A stretch of DNA of 35,682 bases from Candidatus Nitrosopumilus sp. Its GTDB lineage: Archaea > Thermoproteota > Nitrososphaeria > Nitrososphaerales > Nitrosopumilaceae. The first letter of the stretch is position 1, and each line of letters opens with the position of its first letter. Of the stretch, positions 11,504 to 28,552 are shown piece by piece. The stretch covers positions 1-35,682 of the forward strand of contig JAOTVS010000014.1 of the NCBI GenBank assembly GCA_029863275.1. Direction: 5' to 3'. A model generated the notes under the pieces. The model was not told where the DNA came from and did not search any database. It saw only the letters and a program-made list of their open reading frames with translations. A program made the translations under genes and the position numbers.

Positions 11504-12829
11504 TTGAGAAAAAATAGCTTCGTATGGCATCCTAATACCCAGATGAAAGAATGGGAGACATTTGATAAGATTTCTTATGCTAAAGGTATGTGGTTATTTG
11601 ACTCCAAAGGAAACAAAATGCTTGATGCAGTGGCATCAATGTGGTGTAACGTTTGGGGACATTCAAAAAAAGAATTAGTAAATGCAATCATTAATCAGAC
11701 CAAAAAATTACAGCATTCTTCGATATTCAACCTTACTCACGAGCCTGCAGAGCAACTTGCAAAGAAACTTGTACGTATTTCTCCAGGGATGCACAAAGTG
11801 TTTTACTCTGATAACGGATCATCTGCAATGGAGATTGCCCTAAAGTTGGCTTTACAGTTTTGGGTCAACTCAGGTGAGAAACAAAAATCAAAAATAGTAA
11901 CACTTGAGAATGGTTACCACGGAGATACTTTTGGTGCAATGTCAATAGGATATGTACCACAATTTTTTGAAAAATTTAAAAAACAATTATTCCCCACGAT
12001 CCAAATACCAGTTCCAAACCATTATAGAATTCCAAAAGGTTTCACATATGCAGATTATGAAAATTATTGTTTAGAAAAAATTGAAGCCCAGTTTTCCAAA
12101 GACAGCAAGATTGCCGCATTTGTAATGGAAAGTGGCGCACAGATTGCAGGAGGGGTAATAATTTATCCAAAAAATTTTCAAAAAAAGATTAGTCAAATAT
12201 GTAAAACACATAATGTTTTGTTTGTTCTCGATGAGATAGCTACGGGTTTCGGACGGTTAGGCTCTATGGTACAGTATACAGAACAAAAAAGCATACCCGA
12301 TATTGTAGCATATGGAAAAATGTTAACAGGTGGATATATGACAATGGCTGCAACTCTTGCAAATAAAAAAATCTATGATGAATTTTTAGGAGATTTTAAT
12401 GATTGGAGACATCTTTTTCATGGACACACCTTTACTGGAAATCCAATAGCAACAGCGGTTTCACTTGAGAATTTGAATTTATATCAAAAGGATCACTTGA
12501 TTAAACAAATTCAAAAAACATCCAAGGTGTTTACAGAGTATTATGAAGAAATTTTAAAATTAGAACTAGTAGGGGACATTCGTCACAAAGGGATGCTAAT
12601 GGGAATAGAGCTAGTGTCAGATAAAAAGAAAAAAACTCCAATAAACCCAAAAAAATCAATAAATAAGATTTTCTTTGAGGAAGGAAAAAAAAATGGAATT
12701 TACCTTCGAACCCTAGGAAATATAATGATGCTTGTTCCCCCATTGGCCATTTCAGAAAATGACCTAAATTTACTTTTAAATCGAACCATTCAGACCATTA
12801 AATCTGCCCAGAAACATGTGCTAAAATGA
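11504..12829 (+). CDS. bioA: Adenosylmethionine-8-amino-7-oxononanoate aminotransferase
   Basis: A 441-residue class III PLP aminotransferase that makes 7,8-diaminopelargonate, with S-adenosylmethionine as usual amino donor. The BioA-specific N-terminus FVWHPNTQMKEW is present, then SDNGSSAMEIALK (PLP phosphate contacts, about 102-114), NGYHGDTFGAMS (136-147), the PLP Asp243 in FVLDEIATGFGRLG, and the Schiff-base Lys272 in VAYGKMLTGGYM. Length is typical. The start is TTG; the conserved WHPNTQM segment rules out the downstream ATG at 11540 or later. The gene ends at the first half-site of the dyad that precedes bioB. The aminotransferase could in principle use lysine as donor; the sequence alone does not decide. 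Confidence 0.93.
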   Translation: MRKNSFVWHPNTQMKEWETFDKISYAKGMWLFDSKGNKMLDAVASMWCNVWGHSKKELVNAIINQTKKLQHSSIFNLTHEPAEQLAKKLVRISPGMHKVFYSDNGSSAMEIALKLALQFWVNSGEKQKSKIVTLENGYHGDTFGAMSIGYVPQFFEKFKKQLFPTIQIPVPNHYRIPKGFTYADYENYCLEKIEAQFSKDSKIAAFVMESGAQIAGGVIIYPKNFQKKISQICKTHNVLFVLDEIATGFGRLGSMVQYTEQKSIPDIVAYGKMLTGGYMTMAATLANKKIYDEFLGDFNDWRHLFHGHTFTGNPIATAVSLENLNLYQKDHLIKQIQKTSKVFTEYYEEILKLELVGDIRHKGMLMGIELVSDKKKKTPINPKKSINKIFFEEGKKNGIYLRTLGNIMMLVPPLAISENDLNLLLNRTIQTIKSAQKHVLK

Positions 12830-12860
12830 TGTTAACCCCAAAAACTTTGAAGGTTAACCT
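12829..12860. promoter_or_regulatory. BirA-box-like operator upstream of bioB
   Basis: ATGTTAACC-N14-GGTTAACCT, overlapping the last base of bioA and ending 41 nt before the bioB ATG, just upstream of the TATA-like TTTAATGTAAAT (about 12875). This matches the known BirA operator architecture (TTGTwAACC-N14-16-GGTTwACAA; in E. coli TTGTAAACC-N16-GGTTTACAA), conserved in bacteria and reported for archaea. Repression of bioB (and bioF) by biotin-loaded biotin ligase is the natural reading. The regulator itself is outside the window. A 32-nt element of the same design lies before rpl3. Confidence 0.7.
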
Positions 12861-12901
12861 TTCGAGAAATATTATTTAATGTAAATTTCCTCATATTGTT
12901 T

Positions 12902-13879
12902 ATGAGTTATAGTGACTTTATCAAAGAATGTCAAGAAAACGTTCTATCCGGAGTTGGGATTAGTTCAGATAGTGCTGCAAAGCTATTTGAAATTCCAAAA
13001 GAATACATAAAAGAACTTGCAAATGCTGCCAATCAAATAACTCGAGAATTTAATGGAAACAAGGTAGACGTTGAACAACTAAATAACATAAAAAAAAATT
13101 CATGTAGTGAGGATTGTTCTTTTTGTGGCCAGTCTGCATTTTTTGATACTGGAATTGAATCTTATCAGTTACCATCACCAACAGAAGTTGTAAGCAGAGC
13201 ACAAAAAGCAAAAGATGAAGGTGCAAAGTCCTACTGTCTAGTCGCAGCATGGAGAGAGCCATCACCAAAAGATTTTTCTAAAGTTTGTACAATAATTGAA
13301 GAGGTAAACAACAAGGTTGGAATTAGTGTCGAATGTAGCTTAGGATTTCTAACATATGATCAGGCAAAAAAACTTAAAGAACTGAATGTCAAACGATATA
13401 ATCACAACCTAGAGACTGCAAAATCAAAGTTTGCAGAAATCTGTACTACACATACCTATGAAGACAGATTAAGAACTCTGCAAATTGCAAGAGACGCAGG
13501 ATTAGAGTTGTGCACAGGCGGGATTATTGGATTAGGTGAAACACAAGAACAGCGATTAGAGTTGGTGTTAGCACTCGCTGCGATTTATCCTGAGGAAATT
13601 ACAATTAACATTTTGGTTCCTGTTCCTGGGACGCCATTAGAATTGCAAACACCACTTGAAAAATCTGAAATTATTAGAATGTTTTCAGTCATTCGTTTTT
13701 TGTTACCAGAATCTGTGATTAAAATTTCAGGAGGAAGAGAAACAAATCTTGATGATTCAGGTGAAGAATTATTGCAAAGCGGAGCCAATGGCATAATTAC
13801 ATCAGGGTACCTTACTTTAGGAGGGAATGATGCAGACCAAGACATCAAAATGATAAAGAAGATAGGCCTTGAAGTCTAA
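12902..13879 (+). CDS. bioB: Biotin synthase (radical SAM)
   Basis: Radical SAM enzyme that inserts sulfur into dethiobiotin. From the chosen ATG the protein has 325 residues. The [4Fe-4S] motif CSEDCSFC lies at residues 68-75. Further BioB signatures are the YNHNLETA segment (about 157-164), GGIIGLGETQEQR (about 201-213), and the C-terminal SGGRETNL plus GYLTLGGNDADQD. A TTG six nt upstream would add two residues; the ATG at 12902 sits about 26 nt after a TATA-like element, so I prefer it. The gene overlaps bioF by 11 nt and follows the BirA-box-like dyad, so bioB and bioF are likely one biotin-regulated unit. Confidence 0.95.
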   Translation: MSYSDFIKECQENVLSGVGISSDSAAKLFEIPKEYIKELANAANQITREFNGNKVDVEQLNNIKKNSCSEDCSFCGQSAFFDTGIESYQLPSPTEVVSRAQKAKDEGAKSYCLVAAWREPSPKDFSKVCTIIEEVNNKVGISVECSLGFLTYDQAKKLKELNVKRYNHNLETAKSKFAEICTTHTYEDRLRTLQIARDAGLELCTGGIIGLGETQEQRLELVLALAAIYPEEITINILVPVPGTPLELQTPLEKSEIIRMFSVIRFLLPESVIKISGGRETNLDDSGEELLQSGANGIITSGYLTLGGNDADQDIKMIKKIGLEV

Positions 13880-14996
13880 TCTTAGTTTTATTGACTCAGA
13901 ACTTGAGCAGTTAAAGAAAAATCACCTTTTAAGAAAATTAAGATATGGTACAATTAGAGGTGCTACAATTACAATTCAAGGCAAGAATCTACTAAATTTA
14001 TGTTCTAATGATTATCTTGGAATCCCAACAACTAGATTAAAAATAATGCAAATGCAATCAAGTTCGAGATTAATATCTGGAAATCATGAAATTTACAAAA
14101 AATTAGAAAATAAACTGGCTCGACATAAATCTCAAGAGTCTAGTTTAATTTATCCAACTGGATACATGGCAAATTTAGGTGTGATTTCTACAATTGCAAA
14201 AAAAGGTGATTTAATTCTTAGTGATGAATTAAATCATGCAAGTATAATTGAATCATGTAGATTGTCAGGTGCCACCATTTCAATTTATAAACATAATAAC
14301 ATGGAAGATTTGCAGCAAAAATTAAAACGAACATCTAAAAACAAATTTGTAATAACTGAAGGGATTTTTAGCATGGATGGGGATTTCTCTAAATTAAAGG
14401 AAATATCTGAGATTACACAAAAGTCTAATTCAATTTTTATACTTGATGATGCACATGGTGACTTTATAGTTGGAAAGGATGGAAGAGGGACTGCAGATTA
14501 TTTTGGAGTACAAAAGAAGATAGATTTGTACATCAGTAGTTTAAGTAAAGGGTTAGGATCTTTTGGAGGATATGTTGCTTCTTATAAAAAAGTAATCGAT
14601 TTGAACATAAACAGATCAAAATCATTTATCTATACTTCTGCGCTGCCTTCATTTTTAGTTGAGTACAGTTTGAAACGATTTGAATCAAATCGAGAAGTCC
14701 AACGAAGAAAATTGCAAAAAAATGTAGAGTTATTTTTAAAAAGATTAGGCCAAATTGGATATACGATTAAATCTCAAACTCATGTTATTCCAATAATTAT
14801 TGGTAAAGAAAAAACTGCAATGGAGTTTGGAAATTATTTGTTCAAAAATGGTGTATATGCTCAACCAATTAGATATCCTACAGTTCCTAAAAATAAGTCA
14901 AGGTTAAGAATTTCTGTGACAGCCTGGTTAACTCATCAAGATATTGAAAATGCTCTTGTCGTGTTTGAAAAAGCATTTCAAAAATTTTTGAAATAA
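13869..14996 (+). CDS. bioF: 8-amino-7-oxononanoate synthase
   Basis: A 375-residue alpha-oxoamine synthase that condenses pimeloyl-CoA (or pimeloyl-ACP) with alanine. Fold-type I PLP motifs are clear: LCSNDYLG (44-51), SGNHEIYKKLE (70-80), YPTGYMANLG (95-104), DELNHASIIESCRLSG (119-134), LDDAHGDF (192-199) and the PLP Lys227 in SSLSKGLGSFGGY. The TTG start lies inside the bioB end (11-nt overlap), implying coupled translation; the next in-frame ATG would remove conserved sequence. Paralogous glycine C-acetyltransferase (Kbl) is the alternative, but the position next to bioB favours BioF. No pimelate-forming gene (bioC, bioH, bioW, bioI) is visible in the window. Confidence 0.92.
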   Translation: MKSNLSFIDSELEQLKKNHLLRKLRYGTIRGATITIQGKNLLNLCSNDYLGIPTTRLKIMQMQSSSRLISGNHEIYKKLENKLARHKSQESSLIYPTGYMANLGVISTIAKKGDLILSDELNHASIIESCRLSGATISIYKHNNMEDLQQKLKRTSKNKFVITEGIFSMDGDFSKLKEISEITQKSNSIFILDDAHGDFIVGKDGRGTADYFGVQKKIDLYISSLSKGLGSFGGYVASYKKVIDLNINRSKSFIYTSALPSFLVEYSLKRFESNREVQRRKLQKNVELFLKRLGQIGYTIKSQTHVIPIIIGKEKTAMEFGNYLFKNGVYAQPIRYPTVPKNKSRLRISVTAWLTHQDIENALVVFEKAFQKFLK

Positions 14997-17242: not shown

Positions 17243-17896
17243 TTGATTAGTAACTCATGGAACAAAGGTACAGGAGAAAGCTTGTCCCAAAAGGTCATGG
17301 GTAGAGTAAGACCAGATGAGCCATTAAAAAATAAAATAGAGTTTGCCCAAAGAAAATTACAATCGCAAATCACAAAATTAGAAGGAATTGATATAAAATT
17401 ACAAAGAAAGCATGATGTTATTTTTGAAAAAATTGTAAATGCGCAAAAAACTCACAATAACGGTTATGCCAAAGCTTATGCAAATGAACTCTCTCAGCTA
17501 AGAAAGATGAAAAACATGGTAAGTGGTGCAAAATTATCTATGGAGCAAGTTCAACTTAGACTAAGCACCGTATCAGAACTTGGAGATGTAGTAGTAACAC
17601 TCAGTCCTGCAATGTCGCTAATCAAGGGTATAAGTTCTTCATTAGGGGGCATAATGCCAGAAGCAAATGCATCGATGCAAGATTTGTCACAAATTCTAGG
17701 AGATGTTTTAACTGGTTCATCGGTAAATGATTCAGGAATTATGGATGCAGGAATTTCTGAGAATTCAGATACATTAGCAATTCTTGAAGAAGCTCATTCT
17801 GTAATTGAAGGCCATACTAAAGTATCCATACCTGAAGTACCAAATAACCTAAAACATGAAATTGTTCAAAGACGCACAGCAGATGTTTTGTTGTAA
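17243..17896 (+). CDS. cdvB: ESCRT-III-like cell-division protein, CdvB paralog
   Basis: A 217-residue protein with the Snf7/ESCRT-III layout: basic N-terminal helices (KNKIEFAQRKLQSQITKLEG and LQRKHDVIFEKIVNAQ), then a long coiled-coil-like stretch (AKAYANELSQLRKMKNMVSGAKLSMEQVQ) and a more acidic C-terminal part with SISSSLGGIMPEA-like and EEAHSVIEGH segments. CdvB proteins polymerise at the division site with CdvA and the CdvC (Vps4) ATPase. Nitrososphaerota carry several CdvB paralogs; this copy stands alone, without cdvA or cdvC, so which paralog it is stays open. The start is TTG; an upstream ATG is out of frame. A TATA-like box and a 9-bp inverted repeat precede it. Confidence 0.85.
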   Translation: MISNSWNKGTGESLSQKVMGRVRPDEPLKNKIEFAQRKLQSQITKLEGIDIKLQRKHDVIFEKIVNAQKTHNNGYAKAYANELSQLRKMKNMVSGAKLSMEQVQLRLSTVSELGDVVVTLSPAMSLIKGISSSLGGIMPEANASMQDLSQILGDVLTGSSVNDSGIMDAGISENSDTLAILEEAHSVIEGHTKVSIPEVPNNLKHEIVQRRTADVLL

Positions 17897-20550: not shown

Positions 20551-20661
20551 TTGAAGGAAAAAAAGAATTTTCTCATTTTAGCAATCGGAATTGGAGTTAT
20601 CGGAGTAATCATTGGTGGCATAACACTTTGGAATATGATTAATGATATTTTGAATTCATGA
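20551..20661 (+). CDS. 36-residue single-pass membrane mini-protein
   Basis: The frame starts TTG 2 nt after the methyltransferase stop and reads MKEKKNFLILAIGIGVIGVI then IGGITLWNMINDILNS. It has a strongly basic N-terminus, one glycine-rich transmembrane helix and a short amphipathic tail. The tight spacing suggests cotranscription with the upstream gene. Function unknown; SecE/Sss1-like length is tempting but no conserved SecE sequence is visible. Confidence 0.6.
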   Translation: MKEKKNFLILAIGIGVIGVIIGGITLWNMINDILNS

Positions 20662-20676
20662 AATTTGATAAATACT

Positions 20677-20708
20677 TTGTTAACCAGAATTTTTTTGAAG
20701 GTTAACGA
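20677..20708. promoter_or_regulatory. BirA-box-like dyad at the head of the ribosomal cluster
   Basis: TTGTTAACC-N14-GGTTAACGA lies 49-80 nt before the rpl3 ATG and 15 nt after the mini-protein stop. It has the same 32-nt architecture as the element before bioB, and the two share TGTTAACC at the left and TTTGAAGGTTAAC at the right. I found no other GTTAAC dyads in the window. Either BirA or another shared factor may bind. Alternatively the T-rich loop could be part of a terminator for the upstream gene. Confidence 0.55.
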
Positions 20709-20756
20709 TATTCTCACATGGTTTATTAGACGGTTGTCGATGATTTCGTTTTATCC

Positions 20757-21749
20757 ATGGGAGCCAGGAAACACAGTCAACCAAGAAGAGGTAGTCTTGC
20801 ATACTCACCTAGAGGTCGTGCCAAAAGCATGGAAGCAAGAATTAGAGCTTGGCCTAAAGTAAACTCCGAAGAACCCAAAATTTTAGCTCATTGTGGTTTT
20901 AAGGCAGGATGCGTCCAAATTGTAAGTATAGATGATCGTGATAAAACTCCAAATGCAGGAAAACAGCTCGTAAGTCTTGGAACAGTTCTTGTAACTCCAC
21001 CAGTAATTATTTTGGGAATTCGAGGATATTCTAAAGATGTGGATGGGTCTCATGCGGAGTTTGATGTTTATGCAAAAGATATTCCAAAATACATTGCAAA
21101 AGAGATTACACTAAAAAGTAAAGAAGGTGCCATTGAGAATGCAGAAAAACATCTTAAAAGAATTAAAGAGATTTTTGCAGTCGTCGCAGTTTCTCCACGA
21201 GCTGCAGGATTAGAACAGAAAAAACCGTATATTTTTGAAGCATTAGTAAGTGGAGGAGATATTCAAAAACAATTTGCACATGTTAAGGAATTATTGGGAA
21301 AAGAAATAAAAATTGATCAGATTTTTGAGACAGGTTCAACAGTAGATGTTGCGGCAATTACAAAAGGCAAAGGTTGGCAAGGAGTTATCCAAAGATGGGG
21401 AGCAAAGAAAAAACAGCACAAATCAAGAAAAACAGTTAGGGAGTTGGGTTCTCTTGGACCAATTTCTCCTCAATATGTCATGTATACAGTACCTAGAGCA
21501 GGTCAAATGGGATTCCATCAAAGAATAGAATATGATAAACGAATTATGATAATGGGAAATACAGAAGACAGCAGTCTTAAAATAAATCCTGACGGGGGAT
21601 ACAAGCACTTTGGCTTAGTTAAGGGAGACTTTATCATTCTAAAAGGTTCTGTACCAGGAACATATCGAAGATTGATAAAACTACGAAGTCAGATTAGAAA
21701 TGCCCCGCCAAAAATATCAAAACCAAACATTTTGGAGGTAGTGATTTGA
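20757..21749 (+). CDS. rpl3: 50S ribosomal protein uL3
   Basis: A 330-residue archaeal/eukaryotic-type L3, one of the first proteins to bind 23S rRNA. It opens MGARKHSQPRRGSLAYSPRG and carries the central KGKGWQGVIQRWGAKKKQHKSRKTVR extension that reaches the peptidyl-transferase centre (about residues 199-224). QMGFHQRIEYDKRI follows towards the end. It starts a long co-directional cluster whose genes overlap or nearly touch. The rpl4 start overlaps its stop by 4 nt. A BirA-box-like dyad lies upstream. Confidence 0.97.
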   Translation: MGARKHSQPRRGSLAYSPRGRAKSMEARIRAWPKVNSEEPKILAHCGFKAGCVQIVSIDDRDKTPNAGKQLVSLGTVLVTPPVIILGIRGYSKDVDGSHAEFDVYAKDIPKYIAKEITLKSKEGAIENAEKHLKRIKEIFAVVAVSPRAAGLEQKKPYIFEALVSGGDIQKQFAHVKELLGKEIKIDQIFETGSTVDVAAITKGKGWQGVIQRWGAKKKQHKSRKTVRELGSLGPISPQYVMYTVPRAGQMGFHQRIEYDKRIMIMGNTEDSSLKINPDGGYKHFGLVKGDFIILKGSVPGTYRRLIKLRSQIRNAPPKISKPNILEVVI

Positions 21750-22561
21750 TCAAAACTACTTCAATGACACTAACTGGCGATAAAGATACAGAAATTGAAT
21801 TACCGCTAATCTTTTCAACACCATTTAGAAGAGACTTAATACACAAAGCATGGACTAATCTAAATTCACATAAATTTCAAAGGCAAGGTAGGCATCCTAC
21901 TGCAGGAATGGATGTTGTTGCAGATACAAACGATCCACCAACAGGCCAAGGTATTTCTCGTATTGCCAGAATGAGAGGAGGAGGCGGTGGCAGACAAGGT
22001 CAAGCAGGAGAAGTAGCATCTACCAGAGGAGGAAGACAAGCCCATCCACCAAATGTGAACAAAGTTATTTACAAAAAACTAAACAAAAAAGAAAACAAGT
22101 TAGCATTGTGTTCTGCAATTGCAGCTACTGCATCAAAGGAACAAGTGCAATTAAGAGGTCATAAAGTAGACGACATCAAATCATTTCCAATAATAGTATC
22201 AAATGATTTGGAGGCCCTAACAAAGGCTAGTGAAATTTCCAAGGTGTTAGAATCTCTAAAACTCGATAAGGATGTGAAAAGACTTCAATCACGAAAACCA
22301 CGTAGTGGTCAAACCGTCCTAAGGGGAAGAGGTAAAAAAATTGGAAAAAGTGTCTTATTTGTAACCAAAGATTCTGAGAAAATTAACAAGGCATGTGGTG
22401 CAATTCCAGGAGTTGAAGCAAGATCAGTTAAGGATTTGAGTGTGTTAGATTTATCACCAGGGTCTGATCCTATTAGGTTGACAGTGTATTCAAAGGCAGC
22501 AATTGAAGAAATTGCCAAAATAAAATCAACGCATCTTAATTTGATGGAGAAAATAAAATGA
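21746..22561 (+). CDS. rpl4: 50S ribosomal protein uL4
   Basis: A 271-residue archaeal L4. The long internal loop that lines the exit tunnel is obvious: RQGRHPTAGMDVVADTNDPP, then a glycine/arginine-rich RIARMRGGGGGRQGQAGEVA stretch at about residues 70-90. The globular part continues with KENKLALCSAIAATA and a C-terminal KSVLFVTKDSEKINKA-like segment. The start is TTG, overlapping the rpl3 stop by 4 nt; the stop overlaps rpl23 by 4 nt. These overlaps point to translational coupling. Confidence 0.96.
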   Translation: MIKTTSMTLTGDKDTEIELPLIFSTPFRRDLIHKAWTNLNSHKFQRQGRHPTAGMDVVADTNDPPTGQGISRIARMRGGGGGRQGQAGEVASTRGGRQAHPPNVNKVIYKKLNKKENKLALCSAIAATASKEQVQLRGHKVDDIKSFPIIVSNDLEALTKASEISKVLESLKLDKDVKRLQSRKPRSGQTVLRGRGKKIGKSVLFVTKDSEKINKACGAIPGVEARSVKDLSVLDLSPGSDPIRLTVYSKAAIEEIAKIKSTHLNLMEKIK

Positions 22562-22824
22562 ACGTGGATCAAGCCAGTAAAATTATTTTGAAGCCGTATA
22601 TAACAGAAAAAACATTTGCAATGGTAGAAAATGAAAGTAAAATTTGTTTTATTGTACAACGACAGGCAAGTAAACCACAAATTGCCGAAGCCGTTACAAC
22701 ACTTTACAATCAAAAAGCAATTAACGTAAACACTGCACGGACAATTTATGGTAAAAAGGCCTTTGTTCAATTTGAGACAATAGAAAAAGCACGAGACTTG
22801 GCTACAAAGATAGGAATGCTATAA
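22558..22824 (+). CDS. rpl23: 50S ribosomal protein uL23
   Basis: An 88-residue L23, located beside the exit tunnel where it can contact SRP and nascent chains. Typical pattern: ASKIILKPYITEKTFAMVE, then KICFIVQRQASKPQIAEAV and a final FVQFETIEKARDLATKIGML. The ATG start overlaps the rpl4 stop by 4 nt. Archaeal clusters normally continue with uL2; here a 44-nt gap leads straight to uS19. Confidence 0.96.
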   Translation: MNVDQASKIILKPYITEKTFAMVENESKICFIVQRQASKPQIAEAVTTLYNQKAINVNTARTIYGKKAFVQFETIEKARDLATKIGML

Positions 22825-22868
22825 TATGGACCATAAAAACTCACAATCACGGACACAGGAAAAGAACA

Positions 22869-23264
22869 ATGGTTAAAGAATTTTTATACAGAGGACTTTC
22901 AAAAGAGGATCTAGACAATACTTCTCTTGAAAAGCTATTTCAATTATTCAACTCAAGACAAAGAAGATCTCTTACTCGTGGAATTAACGATGGAAAACGA
23001 AAGTTGATTGAAGAGATAAAATCAGCAAAAGCAGGGAAGTTAAAAACACCCATCAAAACCCATCTTAGAGATTTAATTATACTACCATATATGGTAGGTG
23101 TTGCAGTAAATGTTTTCTCAGGAAAAGACTTTGTTCCAGTAGTTATTAAAACCGAGATGGTTGGGCACTATCTTGGTGAATATGTAATTACTAACAAAAG
23201 AGTTAACCACGGTGCTCCTGGTGTAGGTGCATCAAGATCTAGTCTTTATGTGCCGTTAAAGTGA
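22869..23264 (+). CDS. rps19: 30S ribosomal protein uS19
   Basis: A 131-residue archaeal-length S19 near the head of the small subunit. The start MVKEFLYRGLSKEDLD is typical and no in-frame start exists upstream. Basic RQRRSLTRGIN and the conserved C-terminal block GHYLGEYVITNKRVNHGAPG followed by SRSSLYVPLK confirm it. A 16-codon frame opens with ATG at 22826 and ends just inside rps19; I do not count it as a gene. The neighbour upstream is uL23 rather than the usual uL2. Confidence 0.96.
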   Translation: MVKEFLYRGLSKEDLDNTSLEKLFQLFNSRQRRSLTRGINDGKRKLIEEIKSAKAGKLKTPIKTHLRDLIILPYMVGVAVNVFSGKDFVPVVIKTEMVGHYLGEYVITNKRVNHGAPGVGASRSSLYVPLK

Positions 23265-23269
23265 TTTTT

Positions 23270-23728
23270 ATGGGAAGATTCGACTACGCATTTCAAAATT
23301 ATGATACAACAAAACATGTGCGTTCCTCTTTAAGAGAAAAAGATATTTCTCATAAACATGCAAGAGAAATAGCAGTTGCCATCAAAGGATTATCAATCGA
23401 AAAAGCAAGAGACTATCTTCAAGCAGTAGTCAACAAACAAAGGGCAATTGCATTTGGTAGATACAAAAACCAGGTTGGCCATAGATCAGATCCTGGAATG
23501 ATGTCAGGACGGTATCCTCAAAAATCAGCAAGAGAATTTATCAAAGTATTAGATAATTTGGAATCCAATGCAGAGTATAAAGGGATGGATTTAGATAGAT
23601 TAAAAATTATTAATGCAACAGTTCACAAAGGAGTTCTCGTAAAAAGATTTACTCCAAGAGCAATGGGAAGAGCAACTCCAAAAAATAACGTTCTTACTCA
23701 TGTAGAGTTGGTGGCTCAGGAGATTTAA
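23270..23728 (+). CDS. rpl22: 50S ribosomal protein uL22
   Basis: An L22 of 152 residues from the ATG at 23270, which gives the canonical [12 protein letters not shown] beginning. A GTG at 23261 would add three residues and overlap rps19, and is less likely. Family segments: [20 protein letters not shown], the [21 protein letters not shown] loop, [19 protein letters not shown] and C-terminal [15 protein letters not shown], which forms the tunnel hairpin. rps3 begins 1 nt after its stop. Confidence 0.95.
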
Positions 23729-23729
23729 A

Positions 23730-24506
23730 TTGTCATCAGTCAAAAATGTAATTAAAGACAATTACAACATGATGCTACTCAAAGATTATCTAAGAGAAGC
23801 AATTAAAGATGCAGGATTTTCTCATGCCGAAATTTCCAAAACACCAACCGGAACACGAGTAGCTCTTCATGTTACAAGACCTGGTATTGTGATTGGTCGA
23901 AAAGGTTCCGGAATAAGAGAATTGACAGAAAAACTTGCAATAGACTTTGGCTTAAAAAACCCCCAAATTTCAGTAAACGAGATTGAAAAACCTGAATTAT
24001 CTCCAAGTGTAATGTGTAATAGAATGGCATCACATCTTGAACGTGGTACTGCATTTAGAAGAGCTACAATGTGGACATTAAAACAGATAATGGAGGGAGG
24101 AGCTATGGGAGTACAGATTACAATTTCAGGAAAGCTTAGAGGAGACCGTTCTGCTTTTGAAAAACATACTGCAGGGGTTTTGCCACGCGCAGGGCATCAT
24201 GCAGAAGTAATCGTTTCAGAGGATATAGCTCATGTTACAACTGCAATGGGATCGATTGGAATAAGAATTAGAATTGCAATAAAGGATAGATTTGTTCCAG
24301 AATTTGAATTAAAGAAAAAAACAGGAAAAGAAATCCCAAAGCAGATCAAAGTAGAAGAAATACAAATTGACGATGTAAAAGTTGAAGTAGTTAAAGTGGA
24401 AGGAAAAAAAGACACAGCAAAATCCGAATCAGAGAGAATTGCTTTGGAGGCTAAAAAAATGGAAGCTTTAGAAACACTTGAAGAAGAAGAGGCGAAATTA
24501 AAGTAA
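23730..24506 (+). CDS. rps3: 30S ribosomal protein uS3 with charged C-terminal tail
   Basis: A 258-residue S3. The KH domain is clear ([20 protein letters not shown], about residues 50-69), followed by [19 protein letters not shown] and the C-terminal S3 domain ([20 protein letters not shown]). From about residue 205 the protein runs into a Lys/Glu-rich tail ([20 protein letters not shown]-like, ending in an acidic EEEEAKLK), longer than a bacterial S3 and probably disordered. The start is TTG, 1 nt after rpl22. rpl29 overlaps the stop by 1 nt. Confidence 0.95.
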
Positions 24507-24709
24507 TGTCCAGAATAAGTATGAAAACAGTGAGAGCATTAAACGAGAAGGATCTCAAAAGCAAAATTCAAGAGTCTAGAAGTGAACTTGCAAAACTAAG
24601 AGTTGACGGATCAAAGGGAACCCTAAGAAAAGAAAGTGGAAAGATCAAAGCCCTAAGACACGATATAGCACGAATGCTTACAAGATTAAACGAGATGAGA
24701 AAAAAATGA
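24506..24709 (+). CDS. rpl29: 50S ribosomal protein uL29
   Basis: A 67-residue two-helix L29 with the usual pattern (VRALNEKDLKSKIQESRSEL, then KGTLRKESGKIKALRHDIAR and TRLNE). The ATG overlaps the rps3 stop by 1 nt, and the stop overlaps the Rpp29 start by 4 nt. Confidence 0.95.
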   Translation: MSRISMKTVRALNEKDLKSKIQESRSELAKLRVDGSKGTLRKESGKIKALRHDIARMLTRLNEMRKK

Positions 24710-24972
24710 TAACATCAGGGAATATTGTACGTCATGAATTTATTGGGTTAAAAACTCAGATTCTAGATTCTGCAAATCAACAAATCATAGGATTAAATGG
24801 AACAATAATCCAAGAAACAAAATCCATGTTTAAATTAAACACCAAAAAAGGAATAAAACTAATCCCAAAGGCACGAACCATGTGGAAATTCAGCTTAAAT
24901 GAGCAGCGATTAATTGTGAATGGTTCAAAAATTCAGAAAAGACCTTTTGATAGAATAGGAGACAAGCCTTGA
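24706..24972 (+). CDS. rnp1: Ribonuclease P protein component 1 (Rpp29/Pop4)
   Basis: An 88-residue archaeal Rpp29, a Sm-like beta-barrel that binds the RNase P specificity domain and helps 5' maturation of tRNA. Segments: NIVRHEFIGLKTQILDSAN, then GLNGTIIQETKSMFKLNTKK and IPKARTMWKFSL. Its position between uL29 and uS17 is the conserved archaeal arrangement. Overlapping start and stop codons with both neighbours imply tight coupling. Confidence 0.93.
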   Translation: MITSGNIVRHEFIGLKTQILDSANQQIIGLNGTIIQETKSMFKLNTKKGIKLIPKARTMWKFSLNEQRLIVNGSKIQKRPFDRIGDKP

Positions 24973-25292
24973 CTCAAAATATTGGTTTGAATGTAAAGTC
25001 CCCTGCCAAAGAGTGTAACGATGTTCACTGTCCATTTCATGGTAGACTCGCCATTCGCGGTAAATTATTTGACGGTAAAGTAACAGGTGACAAAGCAAAG
25101 CAAACCATTACACTTCAAAAGGAAGCACCAGTATATTTTAGTAAATTTAAAAGATATGCAAGGAGTACAAATACAATTCACGCACATGTTCCTGCATGTA
25201 TCGAGGTCGTAATGGGTGATCATGTGTTAACTGCAGAATGCAGACCAATTGCAAAATCAGTATCATATGTTGTAGTTGAGGTTAAAACATAA
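24969..25292 (+). CDS. rps17: 30S ribosomal protein uS17
   Basis: A 107-residue archaeal S17 with an OB-fold. Family segments: PAKECNDVHCPFHGRLAIRG at the N-terminus (the CNDxHCPFHG form is typical of archaea and eukaryotes), FSKFKRYARSTNTIHAHVPAC and ECRPIAKSVSYVVVE. The start is TTG, overlapping the Rpp29 stop by 4 nt. rpl14 begins within its stop codon. Confidence 0.95.
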   Translation: MTQNIGLNVKSPAKECNDVHCPFHGRLAIRGKLFDGKVTGDKAKQTITLQKEAPVYFSKFKRYARSTNTIHAHVPACIEVVMGDHVLTAECRPIAKSVSYVVVEVKT

Positions 25293-25714
25293 TGGCAAAA
25301 CAAGCAGGTAAAGGTGTTGCAGAATTCCGTCCCTATGTAACTAGAGTAATTCCAGTAGGGGCAAACATTGTTTGTGCAGATAATACAGGAGCAAAAATTT
25401 TAGAAGTAATTAACGTAACAAAATACAAAACAAGAGTATCAAGACTTCCAGCAGGAGGGGTAGGAGATTTTTGTAATGTTGTTGTTAAAAAGGGTCCAGC
25501 CGAACTTAGAAAGCAAGTATTTGGTGCAGTGATAATTAGACAAAAATATGCAGTAAGAAGATTAAACGGTGTTAGAGTATGTTTTGAAGACAATGCTGCC
25601 GTTTTAATAACTCCAGAAGGAGAGGTGAAAGGAACCGACATCAAAGGACCAGTTGCAGCAGAAGCTTCGGAGAAATGGCCAAGAGTAGCTAACTTGGCAT
25701 CAATGGTGGTATAA
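25292..25714 (+). CDS. rpl14: 50S ribosomal protein uL14
   Basis: A 140-residue L14 located at the subunit interface. The family signature appears as VCADNTGAKILEVINV, with RLPAGGVGDFCNVVVKKG, the RQKYAVRRLNGVRVCFEDNA block and a conserved EVKGTDIKGPVAAEASEKWP end. ATG overlaps the rps17 stop by 1 nt; rpl24 starts 1 nt after the stop. Confidence 0.96.
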   Translation: MAKQAGKGVAEFRPYVTRVIPVGANIVCADNTGAKILEVINVTKYKTRVSRLPAGGVGDFCNVVVKKGPAELRKQVFGAVIIRQKYAVRRLNGVRVCFEDNAAVLITPEGEVKGTDIKGPVAAEASEKWPRVANLASMVV

Positions 25715-25715
25715 A

Positions 25716-26189
25716 ATGAAACCAACAAAAATGAGAAACAAGTTAATTTATAGTGCATCACACGTTACTAAAAGTAAACAGATTTCAAGCCCATTATCAA
25801 AGGAACTCCAAAAAAAATATACTAAAAAAAGCATTAGAGTGGTGGAAGGAGATAATATAAAAATTGTCAGAGGAGAGTTTAAGGGAGTAGATGGAAAGAT
25901 TGCAAAAATTTCTGTTCAAAAAAGTAGCATATCTATTGAAGGCGTAAAAAAAGAAAAAACCAAAGGAGACAAGTTCGATGTCTTTGTTCATTCTTCTAAT
26001 GTTATAGTTACAGGTCTAAACTCTGATGATAAATGGAGAATATCAAAACTAGAGGGGAAAAAACCATCACCAAAGAAAAATGAAAATTCCAAAGAGACAA
26101 TAGTCGAAAAAACAAAAAAAGTTGATACTGAACCAGTAAAGAAAGAAACAAAAGTAGAAAAAATAAAACAAAAGGACAGTGAGAAATAA
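25716..26189 (+). CDS. rpl24: 50S ribosomal protein uL24 with long lysine-rich tail
   Basis: A 157-residue L24. The KOW-type core lies at about residues 40-68 (SIRVVEGDNIKIVRGEFKGV), followed by the SISIEGVKKEKTKGDKFDVF block. Archaeal L24 proteins usually end near residue 120; here about 45 more residues form a Lys/Glu/Thr-rich, low-complexity tail (KKNENSKETIVEKTKKVDTE and onward). Such tails are common in archaeal ribosomal proteins and may bind rRNA. ATG start; the stop overlaps the eS4 start by 1 nt. Confidence 0.93.
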   Translation: MKPTKMRNKLIYSASHVTKSKQISSPLSKELQKKYTKKSIRVVEGDNIKIVRGEFKGVDGKIAKISVQKSSISIEGVKKEKTKGDKFDVFVHSSNVIVTGLNSDDKWRISKLEGKKPSPKKNENSKETIVEKTKKVDTEPVKKETKVEKIKQKDSEK

Positions 26190-26905
26190 TGGTAAGCATA
26201 TCTGGAAGTAAAAAACTCAAAAGACAAATGGCACCTCAGTTTTGGGGAATAAATAGAAAAAATAAAAGATTTGTAGTTACGGTAAAACCAGGACCCCATA
26301 AAAAAGAAGCCTCTATCCCAACGGCAGTTTTCTTAAGAGACACATTAAAAATTGTAAGTACCCTCAGAGAGGCAAAGACTGCCATATATAGCGGAAGAGT
26401 GAAGATTGACGGAATTGTTAGAAAATCCCTTCACCATGCAATAGGTTTAATGGATGTTGTAGAATTACAAGATGTTCCAGATATCTACAGACTTGTTCCT
26501 ACCGGTGGCAAAATTCTAAAACCAGTAATAATTAATGATTCTGAAAAAGGCAAAAAAATTGTTAGAGTAAAGAGTAAAACAACTATAAAAAATGGGAAAA
26601 CCCAAATAGGATTCCATGACGGACGTTCTGTAATTTCAGACATTCAAGTCGACGTAAATGATAGTTGTTTAATACAAATTCCTGAAGTAAAAATTCTTGA
26701 AGTGTTAAAATTAGAAAAAAATGTGCATGTTCTAGTTACGCGTGGAGTAAACGCAGGTGAAATCGGCCAAATAGAGGCAATTGAAGAAGGAACATTCATT
26801 CTTCCAAAACGAGTTCTTTTAGCTCTTGAGGAAAGAAAAATCGAAATTCCCTCAGATGTCGTAATGGTGATAGGAAAAGAGGAACCAGTAATTAAAATAA
26901 AGTGA
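26189..26905 (+). CDS. rps4e: 30S ribosomal protein eS4
   Basis: A 238-residue archaeal/eukaryotic S4e, absent from bacteria. It opens MVSISGSKKLKRQMAPQFWG, has the S4 RNA-binding domain (PTAVFLRDTLKIVSTLREAK) and a C-terminal KOW segment (HVLVTRGVNAGEIGQIEAIE). The position between uL24 and uL5 is the standard archaeal order. Confidence 0.96.
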   Translation: MVSISGSKKLKRQMAPQFWGINRKNKRFVVTVKPGPHKKEASIPTAVFLRDTLKIVSTLREAKTAIYSGRVKIDGIVRKSLHHAIGLMDVVELQDVPDIYRLVPTGGKILKPVIINDSEKGKKIVRVKSKTTIKNGKTQIGFHDGRSVISDIQVDVNDSCLIQIPEVKILEVLKLEKNVHVLVTRGVNAGEIGQIEAIEEGTFILPKRVLLALEERKIEIPSDVVMVIGKEEPVIKIK

Positions 26906-26909
26906 TACT

Positions 26910-27431
26910 ATGTCTCAAACTCAAGAAAATCCAATGAAAAAAATTTTCCTAGACAAGGTTGTTCTAAACATGGGTTTAGGCAAATCAGGGGACGTAATTG
27001 AGGTTGCAAAAAAAGCACTCAGTCAAATTTCTGGAAAAACACCATCATCAAGAGAGGCAAAAGAAACACAAAGAGATTGGGGAATAAGAAAAGGAGAACC
27101 AATTGGAGTTGCAGTTACAGTTAGAGGAGAAGATGCAAAGGAATTATTAAAACGTCTTTTAGAAGCAAAAGGAAATCAAGTTAAGGGAAAATCGTTTGAT
27201 AATTTTGGAAACTATTCATTTGGAATAAATGAACACATAGATATTCCAGGAGTAAAATACGATCCTAAAATTGGAATTTTAGGTTTAGGAATATCTGTTA
27301 CCTTAGCACGTCCAGGATATAACATCAGGGTAAGAAGTAAACACAAAGCTAGAGTCGGTAAAAAGCATGTAATAAAATCTGATGAAGCAAAAGATTATCT
27401 AATCAAAGAGTTTGGAGTGACCGTAGCATAA
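26910..27431 (+). CDS. rpl5: 50S ribosomal protein uL5
   Basis: A 173-residue L5 that binds 5S rRNA. Segments: MKKIFLDKVVLNMGLGKSGD, the SGKTPSSREAKETQRDWGIR block, GNYSFGINEHIDIPGVKYDP and the C-terminal LARPGYNIRVRSKHKARVGK. The start is ATG, 4 nt after eS4; the stop shares one base with the uS14 start. Confidence 0.96.
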   Translation: MSQTQENPMKKIFLDKVVLNMGLGKSGDVIEVAKKALSQISGKTPSSREAKETQRDWGIRKGEPIGVAVTVRGEDAKELLKRLLEAKGNQVKGKSFDNFGNYSFGINEHIDIPGVKYDPKIGILGLGISVTLARPGYNIRVRSKHKARVGKKHVIKSDEAKDYLIKEFGVTVA

Positions 27432-27610
27432 TGGCCAAAGATAGATCATATGAGTTTACAGGAAGAAAAAAACATGACTTTGGAAGGGGTTCCAGATGGT
27501 GTAAAAGGTGCGGAGATTATACTGCAGTTATTCAAAAATATGATCTTATGTTGTGCAGGCGATGTTTCAGAGAAGTAGCAGTGTCGTTAGGATTTAGGAA
27601 AAACCAGTGA
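27431..27610 (+). CDS. rps14: 30S ribosomal protein uS14, zinc-binding type
   Basis: A 59-residue protein too short for common ORF cut-offs. It opens MAKDRSYEFTGRKKHDFGRG and carries a zinc ribbon C24-K-R-C27 and C42-R-R-C45, then FREVAVSLGFRKN, the usual S14 end. ATG overlaps the uL5 stop by 1 nt. Position uL5-uS14-uS8 is the conserved order. Confidence 0.94.
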   Translation: MAKDRSYEFTGRKKHDFGRGSRWCKRCGDYTAVIQKYDLMLCRRCFREVAVSLGFRKNQ

Positions 27611-27615
27611 TAAAA

Positions 27616-28008
27616 ATGCCAGCAACAAACATCTTAGCCAATCTATTTGTCACCCTTTACAATAATGAGGCAAGAAGAAATACTGATTGCATTATTCTTC
27701 CAACTTCAAAATTAGGAATTGAAGTTCTTAAATCCTTACAAAAAAATGGTTACATTGGAGAATTTGAACATATAGATGATAAAAGAGGGGGTAAATTTAA
27801 AATAAAATTATTAGCAAAAATTACAAAATGTGGAGCAATTTCACCAAGATTTAAAGTAAAAAAAGACGCATACAATTCTTGGGAACAACAATATCTACCA
27901 GCATACAATAGAGGCATGTTAGTAGTTACAACTAATCAAGGAGTTATGTCACATCATGAAGCAGTATCAAAAGAACTTGGAGGATTTTTAATCGGATATG
28001 TCTACTAA
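27616..28008 (+). CDS. rps8: 30S ribosomal protein uS8
   Basis: An S8 of 130 residues from the ATG at 27616, giving MPATNILANLFVTLYNNEAR. A GTG at 27607 is in frame and overlaps the uS14 stop by 4 nt; it would add three residues and cannot be excluded given the overlaps elsewhere in the cluster. The C-terminal block RGMLVVTTNQGVMSHHEAVS and GGFLIGYVY is typical of archaeal S8. Binds the central domain of 16S rRNA. Confidence 0.94.
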   Translation: MPATNILANLFVTLYNNEARRNTDCIILPTSKLGIEVLKSLQKNGYIGEFEHIDDKRGGKFKIKLLAKITKCGAISPRFKVKKDAYNSWEQQYLPAYNRGMLVVTTNQGVMSHHEAVSKELGGFLIGYVY

Positions 28009-28552
28009 ACCAGATCAATTCCAAGAAATTTTAGAAATTCCTGAAGGAATTAAAATTACAATGAAAAAACACATGATGCAATTTCATGGTCCATTAGGTA
28101 TGACATTTAAAAGCTTTAGAAAAATACCGGTAAATGTTATAGTCAATGAAGACAAAATAACGCTCAAAGCACAAGGAAAAAGAAAAAGCGATTATTCTAT
28201 ATTGCATACTGCACGCTCCTTAATCAAAAATATTTTCGAAGGTTTGACCGAAGGATACACGATTAAAATGAAAGTAGTCTATGCCCATTTTCCTGTTACC
28301 GTCAAGGTAAAGGATAAAATTATTTCAATAGAAAACTTCCAAGGGGAGAGAGCACCTCGAACAACACACATTGTTGGTAATACCAAAGTAGTTCCAAAAG
28401 GAGAAGATGTTATTTTAACCGGCGAAGTTTGGACAGACATAACTCAAACTGCTGCAAATATAGCATTAACAACCAAAGTAAAAAATAAAGATCATAGGGT
28501 TTTCCTGGATGGAATTTATATCTATGAGAAGAAAAAAGGTATTGAAAAATAG
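27998..28552 (+). CDS. rpl6: 50S ribosomal protein uL6
   Basis: A 184-residue L6 with two related alpha/beta domains. Segments: GIKITMKKHMMQFHGPLGMT, KIPVNVIVNEDKITLKAQGK and the C-terminal signature FQGERAPRTTHIVGNTKVVP. It overlaps rps8 by 11 nt. It is the last ribosomal protein of the cluster: the genes that usually follow in archaea (eL32, eL19, uL18, uS5, uL30, uL15, secY) are absent here. Confidence 0.96.
   Translation: MSTKPDQFQEILEIPEGIKITMKKHMMQFHGPLGMTFKSFRKIPVNVIVNEDKITLKAQGKRKSDYSILHTARSLIKNIFEGLTEGYTIKMKVVYAHFPVTVKVKDKIISIENFQGERAPRTTHIVGNTKVVPKGEDVILTGEVWTDITQTAANIALTTKVKNKDHRVFLDGIYIYEKKKGIEK

Follow-up and report, generated by a model that had tools for sequence, protein, structure and literature searches.

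The window analysed here, by which we mean the whole stretch of 35,682 nucleotides, contains a biotin cluster and a ribosomal cluster, with two similar inverted repeats, 7.8 kb apart, located in front of bioB and of rpl3, respectively. The features needed for what follows are these:

11504..12829, strand +: class-III aminotransferase (Pfam Aminotran_3), probably bioA, just 5' of the bioB operator
12829..12860, strand +: putative BirA-type operator before bioB, ATGTTAACC-N14-GGTTAACCT, conserved in most genera of the family
12872..12879, strand +: probable TATA box of bioB (TTATTTAA), 13 nt past the GTTAAC arm
12896..13879, strand +: bioB, biotin synthase (Pfam Radical_SAM and BATS), start at 12896 (TTG) or 12903 (ATG)
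13869..14996, strand +: class I/II aminotransferase family protein (Pfam Aminotran_1_2), probably bioF, 3' of bioB
20677..20708, strand +: putative BirA-type operator before rpl3, TTGTTAACC-N14-GGTTAACGA, ending 48 bp 5' of the rpl3 ATG
20722..20729, strand +: probable TATA box of rpl3 (TTTATTAG), 15 nt past the GTTAAC arm; the block CTCACATGGTTTAWTAGA is conserved in relatives
20757..21749, strand +: rpl3 (uL3), first gene of the ribosomal cluster (Pfam Ribosomal_L3, E 9e-70)
21746..28552, strand +: genes for L4, L23, S19, L22, S3, S17, L14, S4e, L5 and L6 (Pfam matches)

Scanning of the window placed the core GTTAACC-N14-GGTTAAC at 20679-20706 before rpl3 and at 12831-12858 before bioB, exactly the pair of like dyads described in an earlier note on this DNA; that note had also found no other such GTTAAC pair in the window, and this extends to the complete genome of 1,763,029 bases, in which these two dyads are the sole matches with spacers of N10-20 (genome-wide scans being done by pattern). 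The arm centres are 22 bp apart, i.e., about two helical turns, so that the two arms would face the same side of the DNA, an arrangement that suits a dimer. The sequence TTTGAA beside the right arm is common to both window sites and was dismissed as a coincidence, as relatives do not conserve it. The BRE of rpl3 presumably lies just upstream of the TATA box, in CACATGG, and the ten further ribosomal genes found downstream of rpl3 on the same strand are probably part of the same operon, its extent being judged from gene spacing. After an RNA methyltransferase gene and ahead of the rpl3 operator there is a short frame (20551-20661, TTG start, ...KEKKNFLILAIGIGVIGVIIGGITLWNMINDILNS), apparently encoding a small membrane protein, and a gene for a Snf7-domain protein of the ESCRT-III/Cdv type is found at 17243-17896, near the biotin and ribosomal clusters.

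Both window sites fall within the range of the published BirA consensus, which PMC545781, citing Rodionov et al. 2002, gives as TTGTAAACC-[N14/15]-GGTTTACAA, and the sites listed there include variants such as aGTTgACAA and GGTTgACgA (PMC545781). Compared with TTGTWAACC-N14..16-GGTTWACAA, the rpl3 site has one mismatch, located outside the core, and the rpl3 site of genome G048 (genus g4) has none. The resemblance of the rpl3 site to the BirA operators of biotin genes thus covers half-sites, spacing, tolerated variants and the presence of one HTH-bearing regulator per genome. In the genome studied here, the only match to the biotin ligase family is encoded at C34:6690-7691; the protein of 334 amino acids contains HTH_11 (residues 13-65, E 2e-14), BPL_LplA_LipB and BPL_C domains, can be aligned with Staphylococcus aureus BirA over residues 14 to 329, and its match to Escherichia coli BirA spans almost the full protein. 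By its domain composition it is a group II, DNA-binding-type BirA, so that the sole ligase does carry the N-terminal DNA-binding domain on which the proposal depends.

Conservation of the rpl3 dyad was followed through 151 genomes of the family, in which exact matches were placed against rpl3 and bioB, and by reading the sequence 5' of some 110 rpl3 genes and some 100 bioB genes. The exact dyad occurs in 8 of the 10 genomes belonging to the genus of the window, each match being situated before rpl3 or bioB. All 53 genomes read from g1, g4, g12 (Nitrosopumilus), g14 and g15 (Nitrosarchaeum), a set that includes the genus of the window, carry the dyad before rpl3, the spacer being always N14 and the start codon 45-48 bp away; every close relative examined has thus kept it. 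Fourteen of the 18 arm bases (positions 1, 3-8, 25-30 and 32) are invariant in these genomes and the spacer drifts freely. Among the relatives compared, a TATA-like TTTAWTAG starts at a fixed 12-13 nt after the end of the 9-base arm at rpl3, and at bioB the arm mostly ends 8-11 nt before the TATA box. Among titled records, the dyad is found in 66 full-length rpl3 loci, that of the window included, which make up the clade, and is absent from 11 that lie outside it. In a tree built from nine ribosomal genes for 29 representatives, the carriers form one clade with support of 100/99. A single-gene L3 tree had put g16 within this clade on a long branch; this was rejected, the nine-gene tree having placed g16 outside. 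Read from this distribution, the rpl3 dyad is a single gain with no loss seen.

How exclusive the two positions are was determined using the relaxed pattern GTTAACY-N13..17-RGTTWAC on 30 near-complete genomes, which gave 51 sites, 48 of them at rpl3 or bioB as checked by coordinates. Relaxed sites precede rpl3 in 30/30 genomes, and they precede bioB in all 18 genomes of three genera vs none of 12 Nitrosarchaeum genomes; the other three are strays with differing spacings. The stray dyads L401-L403 were considered as BirA targets and rejected as unrelated. The third site of genome G142 comes directly behind a frame, at the end of a contig, that resembles a class-III aminotransferase, and is probably another bioA/bioB junction. 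A class-wide search outside the family yielded only two matches, both in family f3; an exact GTTAACC-N14-GGTTAAC is present at G190:C1:7418-7445 (L398) in a genome of f3, another family of the order.

Rodionov et al. reportedly described, in 2002, BirA operators at biotin genes in archaea too, along with a link between HTH and operator in bacteria and archaea, and this link was re-tested in the present family. Here the bioB operator occurs in most genera, at its best as a perfect TTGTAAACC-N14-GGTTTACAA, and the HTH of the ligase is decayed or lost in g5, g7, g11, g16 and G031 (L327-L335), which probably happened several times independently. Operator presence tracks HTH presence across genomes: the bioB operator is found in 0 of 8 genomes with a decayed HTH vs 75 of 95 with an intact one (Fisher p = 1e-5 with kinship ignored, and with the HTH state beyond the aligned genomes taken from ligase matches and counted as intact in genomes that gave no such match). 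This co-absence identifies the bioB dyad as a BirA operator. The 20 genomes with intact HTH that lack the operator comprise 16 of Nitrosarchaeum, G022 (g14), G133, G062 (its bioB site is degenerate, with five mismatches) and G025; 19 of them carry the rpl3 dyad. The remaining one, G025 (g17), has an intact HTH, although a stop interrupts the frame of its ligase, and neither an rpl3 nor a bioB dyad was found in it. The bioB operator has been lost several times, unlike the rpl3 site with its presence in all 53 genomes.

The case that bears most directly on rpl3 is that of Nitrosarchaeum (16 genomes), G022 and G133, from which the bioB operator is absent and in which the rpl3 site is kept. Whole-genome search of 12 Nitrosarchaeum genomes showed the dyad at rpl3 to be the sole recurrent one, and the same was found genome-wide in G022 and G133 with one mismatch allowed. 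No other recurrent BirA target was found in Nitrosarchaeum using GTAAACC arms, RGTTWAC variants or one mismatch, nor was there any dyad within about 3 kb 5' of bioB in G040 and G104; such fixed-dyad scans are blind to divergent motifs, for which the Nitrosarchaeum HTH might be kept. Upstream of bioB in Nitrosarchaeum (L068, L070-L075, L077-L079 and others) there is a conserved stretch containing ACGCA, 5' of a TATA-like TTTTTTAAT. Within the Nitrosarchaeum ligase, conservation is highest in the HTH, which is under strong purifying selection (pN/pS 0.051 vs 0.155 for the catalytic ligase domain; the values for Nitrosopumilus are 0.046 and 0.215), and its helix SRVAVWKHIKKI is unaltered in 11 of 13 aligned Nitrosarchaeum sequences. 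Since lineages devoid of the operator lose the HTH, and Nitrosarchaeum retains it with only the rpl3 site visible, this implies that rpl3 is the target, which is the strongest, though indirect, support for BirA acting there; the rpl3 dyad is confined to one clade in which the HTH is intact throughout where tested. Together with the co-loss of HTH and operator, the Nitrosarchaeum case lends support to the reading of the rpl3 dyad as a BirA-type operator that was put forward in the earlier note, and binding of BirA to this site, with control of the ribosomal operon, is in our view highly probable.

Other origins of the repeat have to be weighed against this. GTTAAC is a short AT-rich palindrome, and two such words could meet by chance in AT-rich DNA, but 0 dyads were expected vs 2 found in the window (100 dinucleotide shuffles) and the pair keeps its position in every relative examined from the five genera, which leaves this account with a negligible probability. 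An RNA hairpin, acting as a terminator of the upstream gene or as a leader structure, would suit arms that can pair and a short frame that ends just upstream; it is very improbable and was rejected, as covariation is absent at positions 2 and 9 of the arms (position 2 pairs in 18/53 genomes and position 9 in 31/53, it being the sequence and not the pairing that is conserved), there is no T run after the dyad, and the element lies upstream of the TATA box and is common to bioB. Harder to set aside, though still unlikely, is a different winged-helix factor whose recognition sequence equals the BirA half-site and spacing by chance: the rpl3 sites have the outer bases T-N-GTTAAC...GTTAAC-N-A, with T1 and A32 invariant where bioB sites are loose, and their spacing is always 14 vs 14-16 at bioB. 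Against such a factor, rpl3 and bioB share seven-base arms, inner-base variants (C/T and G/A) and spacing class and are similarly placed relative to TATA, and the BirA HTH of Nitrosarchaeum, G022 and G133 would be left with no visible target, despite being, in Nitrosarchaeum, the part of the ligase under the greatest constraint.

The preferred explanation is that the 32-bp rpl3 dyad would be bound as an operator by the BirA of the same cell, a bifunctional biotin ligase and transcription factor. In bacteria the active form is the BirA dimer loaded with biotinoyl-AMP, and here such a dimer would bind the two GTTAACC half-sites just upstream of BRE/TATA and control transcription of the large ribosomal-protein operon, presumably as a whole, from uL3 on; the same BirA would control bioB via the twin site. 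Ribosome production would in this way be tied to the supply of biotin and to the consumption of biotinoyl-AMP by freshly synthesised acceptor protein of the carboxylase, a dependence on biotin that is itself predicted.

With BirA taken as the binding protein, we lean somewhat towards activation at rpl3. Archaeal activators typically bind upstream of the BRE and aid weak promoters, and repressors overlap BRE/TATA or sit downstream (PMC5512572); the lean to activation comes from the position of the rpl3 site upstream of the BRE, like the sites of archaeal activators, and from the fact that no loss of it was seen, unlike at bioB. The archaeal activators Ptr2 and EarA likewise have their site just upstream of BRE/TATA, but these proteins and their targets are unrelated to the BirA case, in which activation is a proposal (PMC5512572). 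The opposite sign of control is less probable but a real possibility: biotinoyl-AMP would build up when no new apo-carboxylase is made, i.e., in growth arrest, and the BirA dimer would then block TFB/TBP at both bioB and rpl3. BirA represses bacterial biotin genes (PMC545781), the operators end about 8-13 nt before the TATA box and could clash with TFB at the BRE, and the similar placement relative to TATA at bioB and rpl3 argues against opposite signs at the two genes, favouring repression; in g18, moreover, the TATA box of rpl3 lies within a BirA-like dyad. If the site served repression alone, one would expect it to be as dispensable at rpl3 as the operator is at bioB, but at rpl3 it is present in 53/53 genomes.

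To our knowledge, the targets of BirA are genes for the synthesis or transport of biotin, together with some genes of carboxylases, and no ribosomal operon is known among them. The dyad in front of bioB conforms to this picture, with the same motif ahead of a biotin gene in the same genome; the genes behind the rpl3 site are ribosomal and have no part in biotin synthesis, transport or carboxylation. The ribosomal target is accordingly a new kind of target, the biotin criterion being a description of the known regulon and not of the operator as such. A further difference is that the rpl3 site precedes an archaeal BRE/TATA, whereas bacterial BirA operators lie over -35/-10. Our literature search on BirA with archaeal ribosomal proteins or Nitrosopumilus maritimus returned nothing relevant and no ribosomal BirA target. 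The new element is an operator of BirA type that has become fixed, across an entire clade of archaea, where the ribosomal operon begins. A parallel is the control of ribosomal protein L31 by Zur in E. coli, in which a nutrient-specific sensor likewise acts on ribosomal-protein genes, but Zur switches single zinc/non-zinc paralogues, whereas here a vitamin sensor would sit at the head of the main ribosomal-protein operon of an archaeon (PMC9825181).

The link between BirA and rpl3 may be older than the dyad clade. Outside the clade, the rpl3 promoters of g3, g6, g8, g13, g17, g18, g19, g21 and g22 contain TATAATGGGGTTWACRA or nearly so, an element that amounts to a conserved BirA-like half-site GGTTWACRA directly after the TATA box (e.g., L172, L170, L166 and L432), and its W base agrees with the right arm of the bioB operator in the same genus (T in g6, g8 and g21, A elsewhere). 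In g18 a whole dyad lies over the rpl3 TATA box, at its best TTGTTATCC-N15-GGTTAACAA. The post-TATA half-site is missing in all genera with a decayed HTH, and also in G010, g9, g10 and g20 with their HTH intact; it may be some other promoter or start-site element, as the CGA behind it persists in promoters that no longer have the WA.

We know of no transcription factor that sets ribosomal-protein synthesis in Thaumarchaeota, and a literature search for factors setting it found none. The carbon fixation cycle of these archaea has as its key enzyme an acetyl/propionyl-CoA carboxylase, which needs biotin. We give about an even chance to the combined view that BirA is a growth regulator of ammonia-oxidising archaea, in which free biotinoyl-AMP would report biotin supply relative to new carbon-fixation carboxylase and set ribosome synthesis, this being the only recognisable DNA-binding task of BirA in Nitrosarchaeum, with a link that may be older. 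Nitrosarchaeum would then represent a natural case in which the DNA-binding domain of BirA has seemingly been kept for rpl3 alone. In the ammonia-oxidising Nitrosopumilus and Nitrosarchaeum, the rate at which ribosomes are made is probably determined in part by the supply of biotin, and, if this is true, carbon fixation and growth would be coupled through a biotin sensor acting on the ribosomal operon, in a simple circuit made up of one protein.
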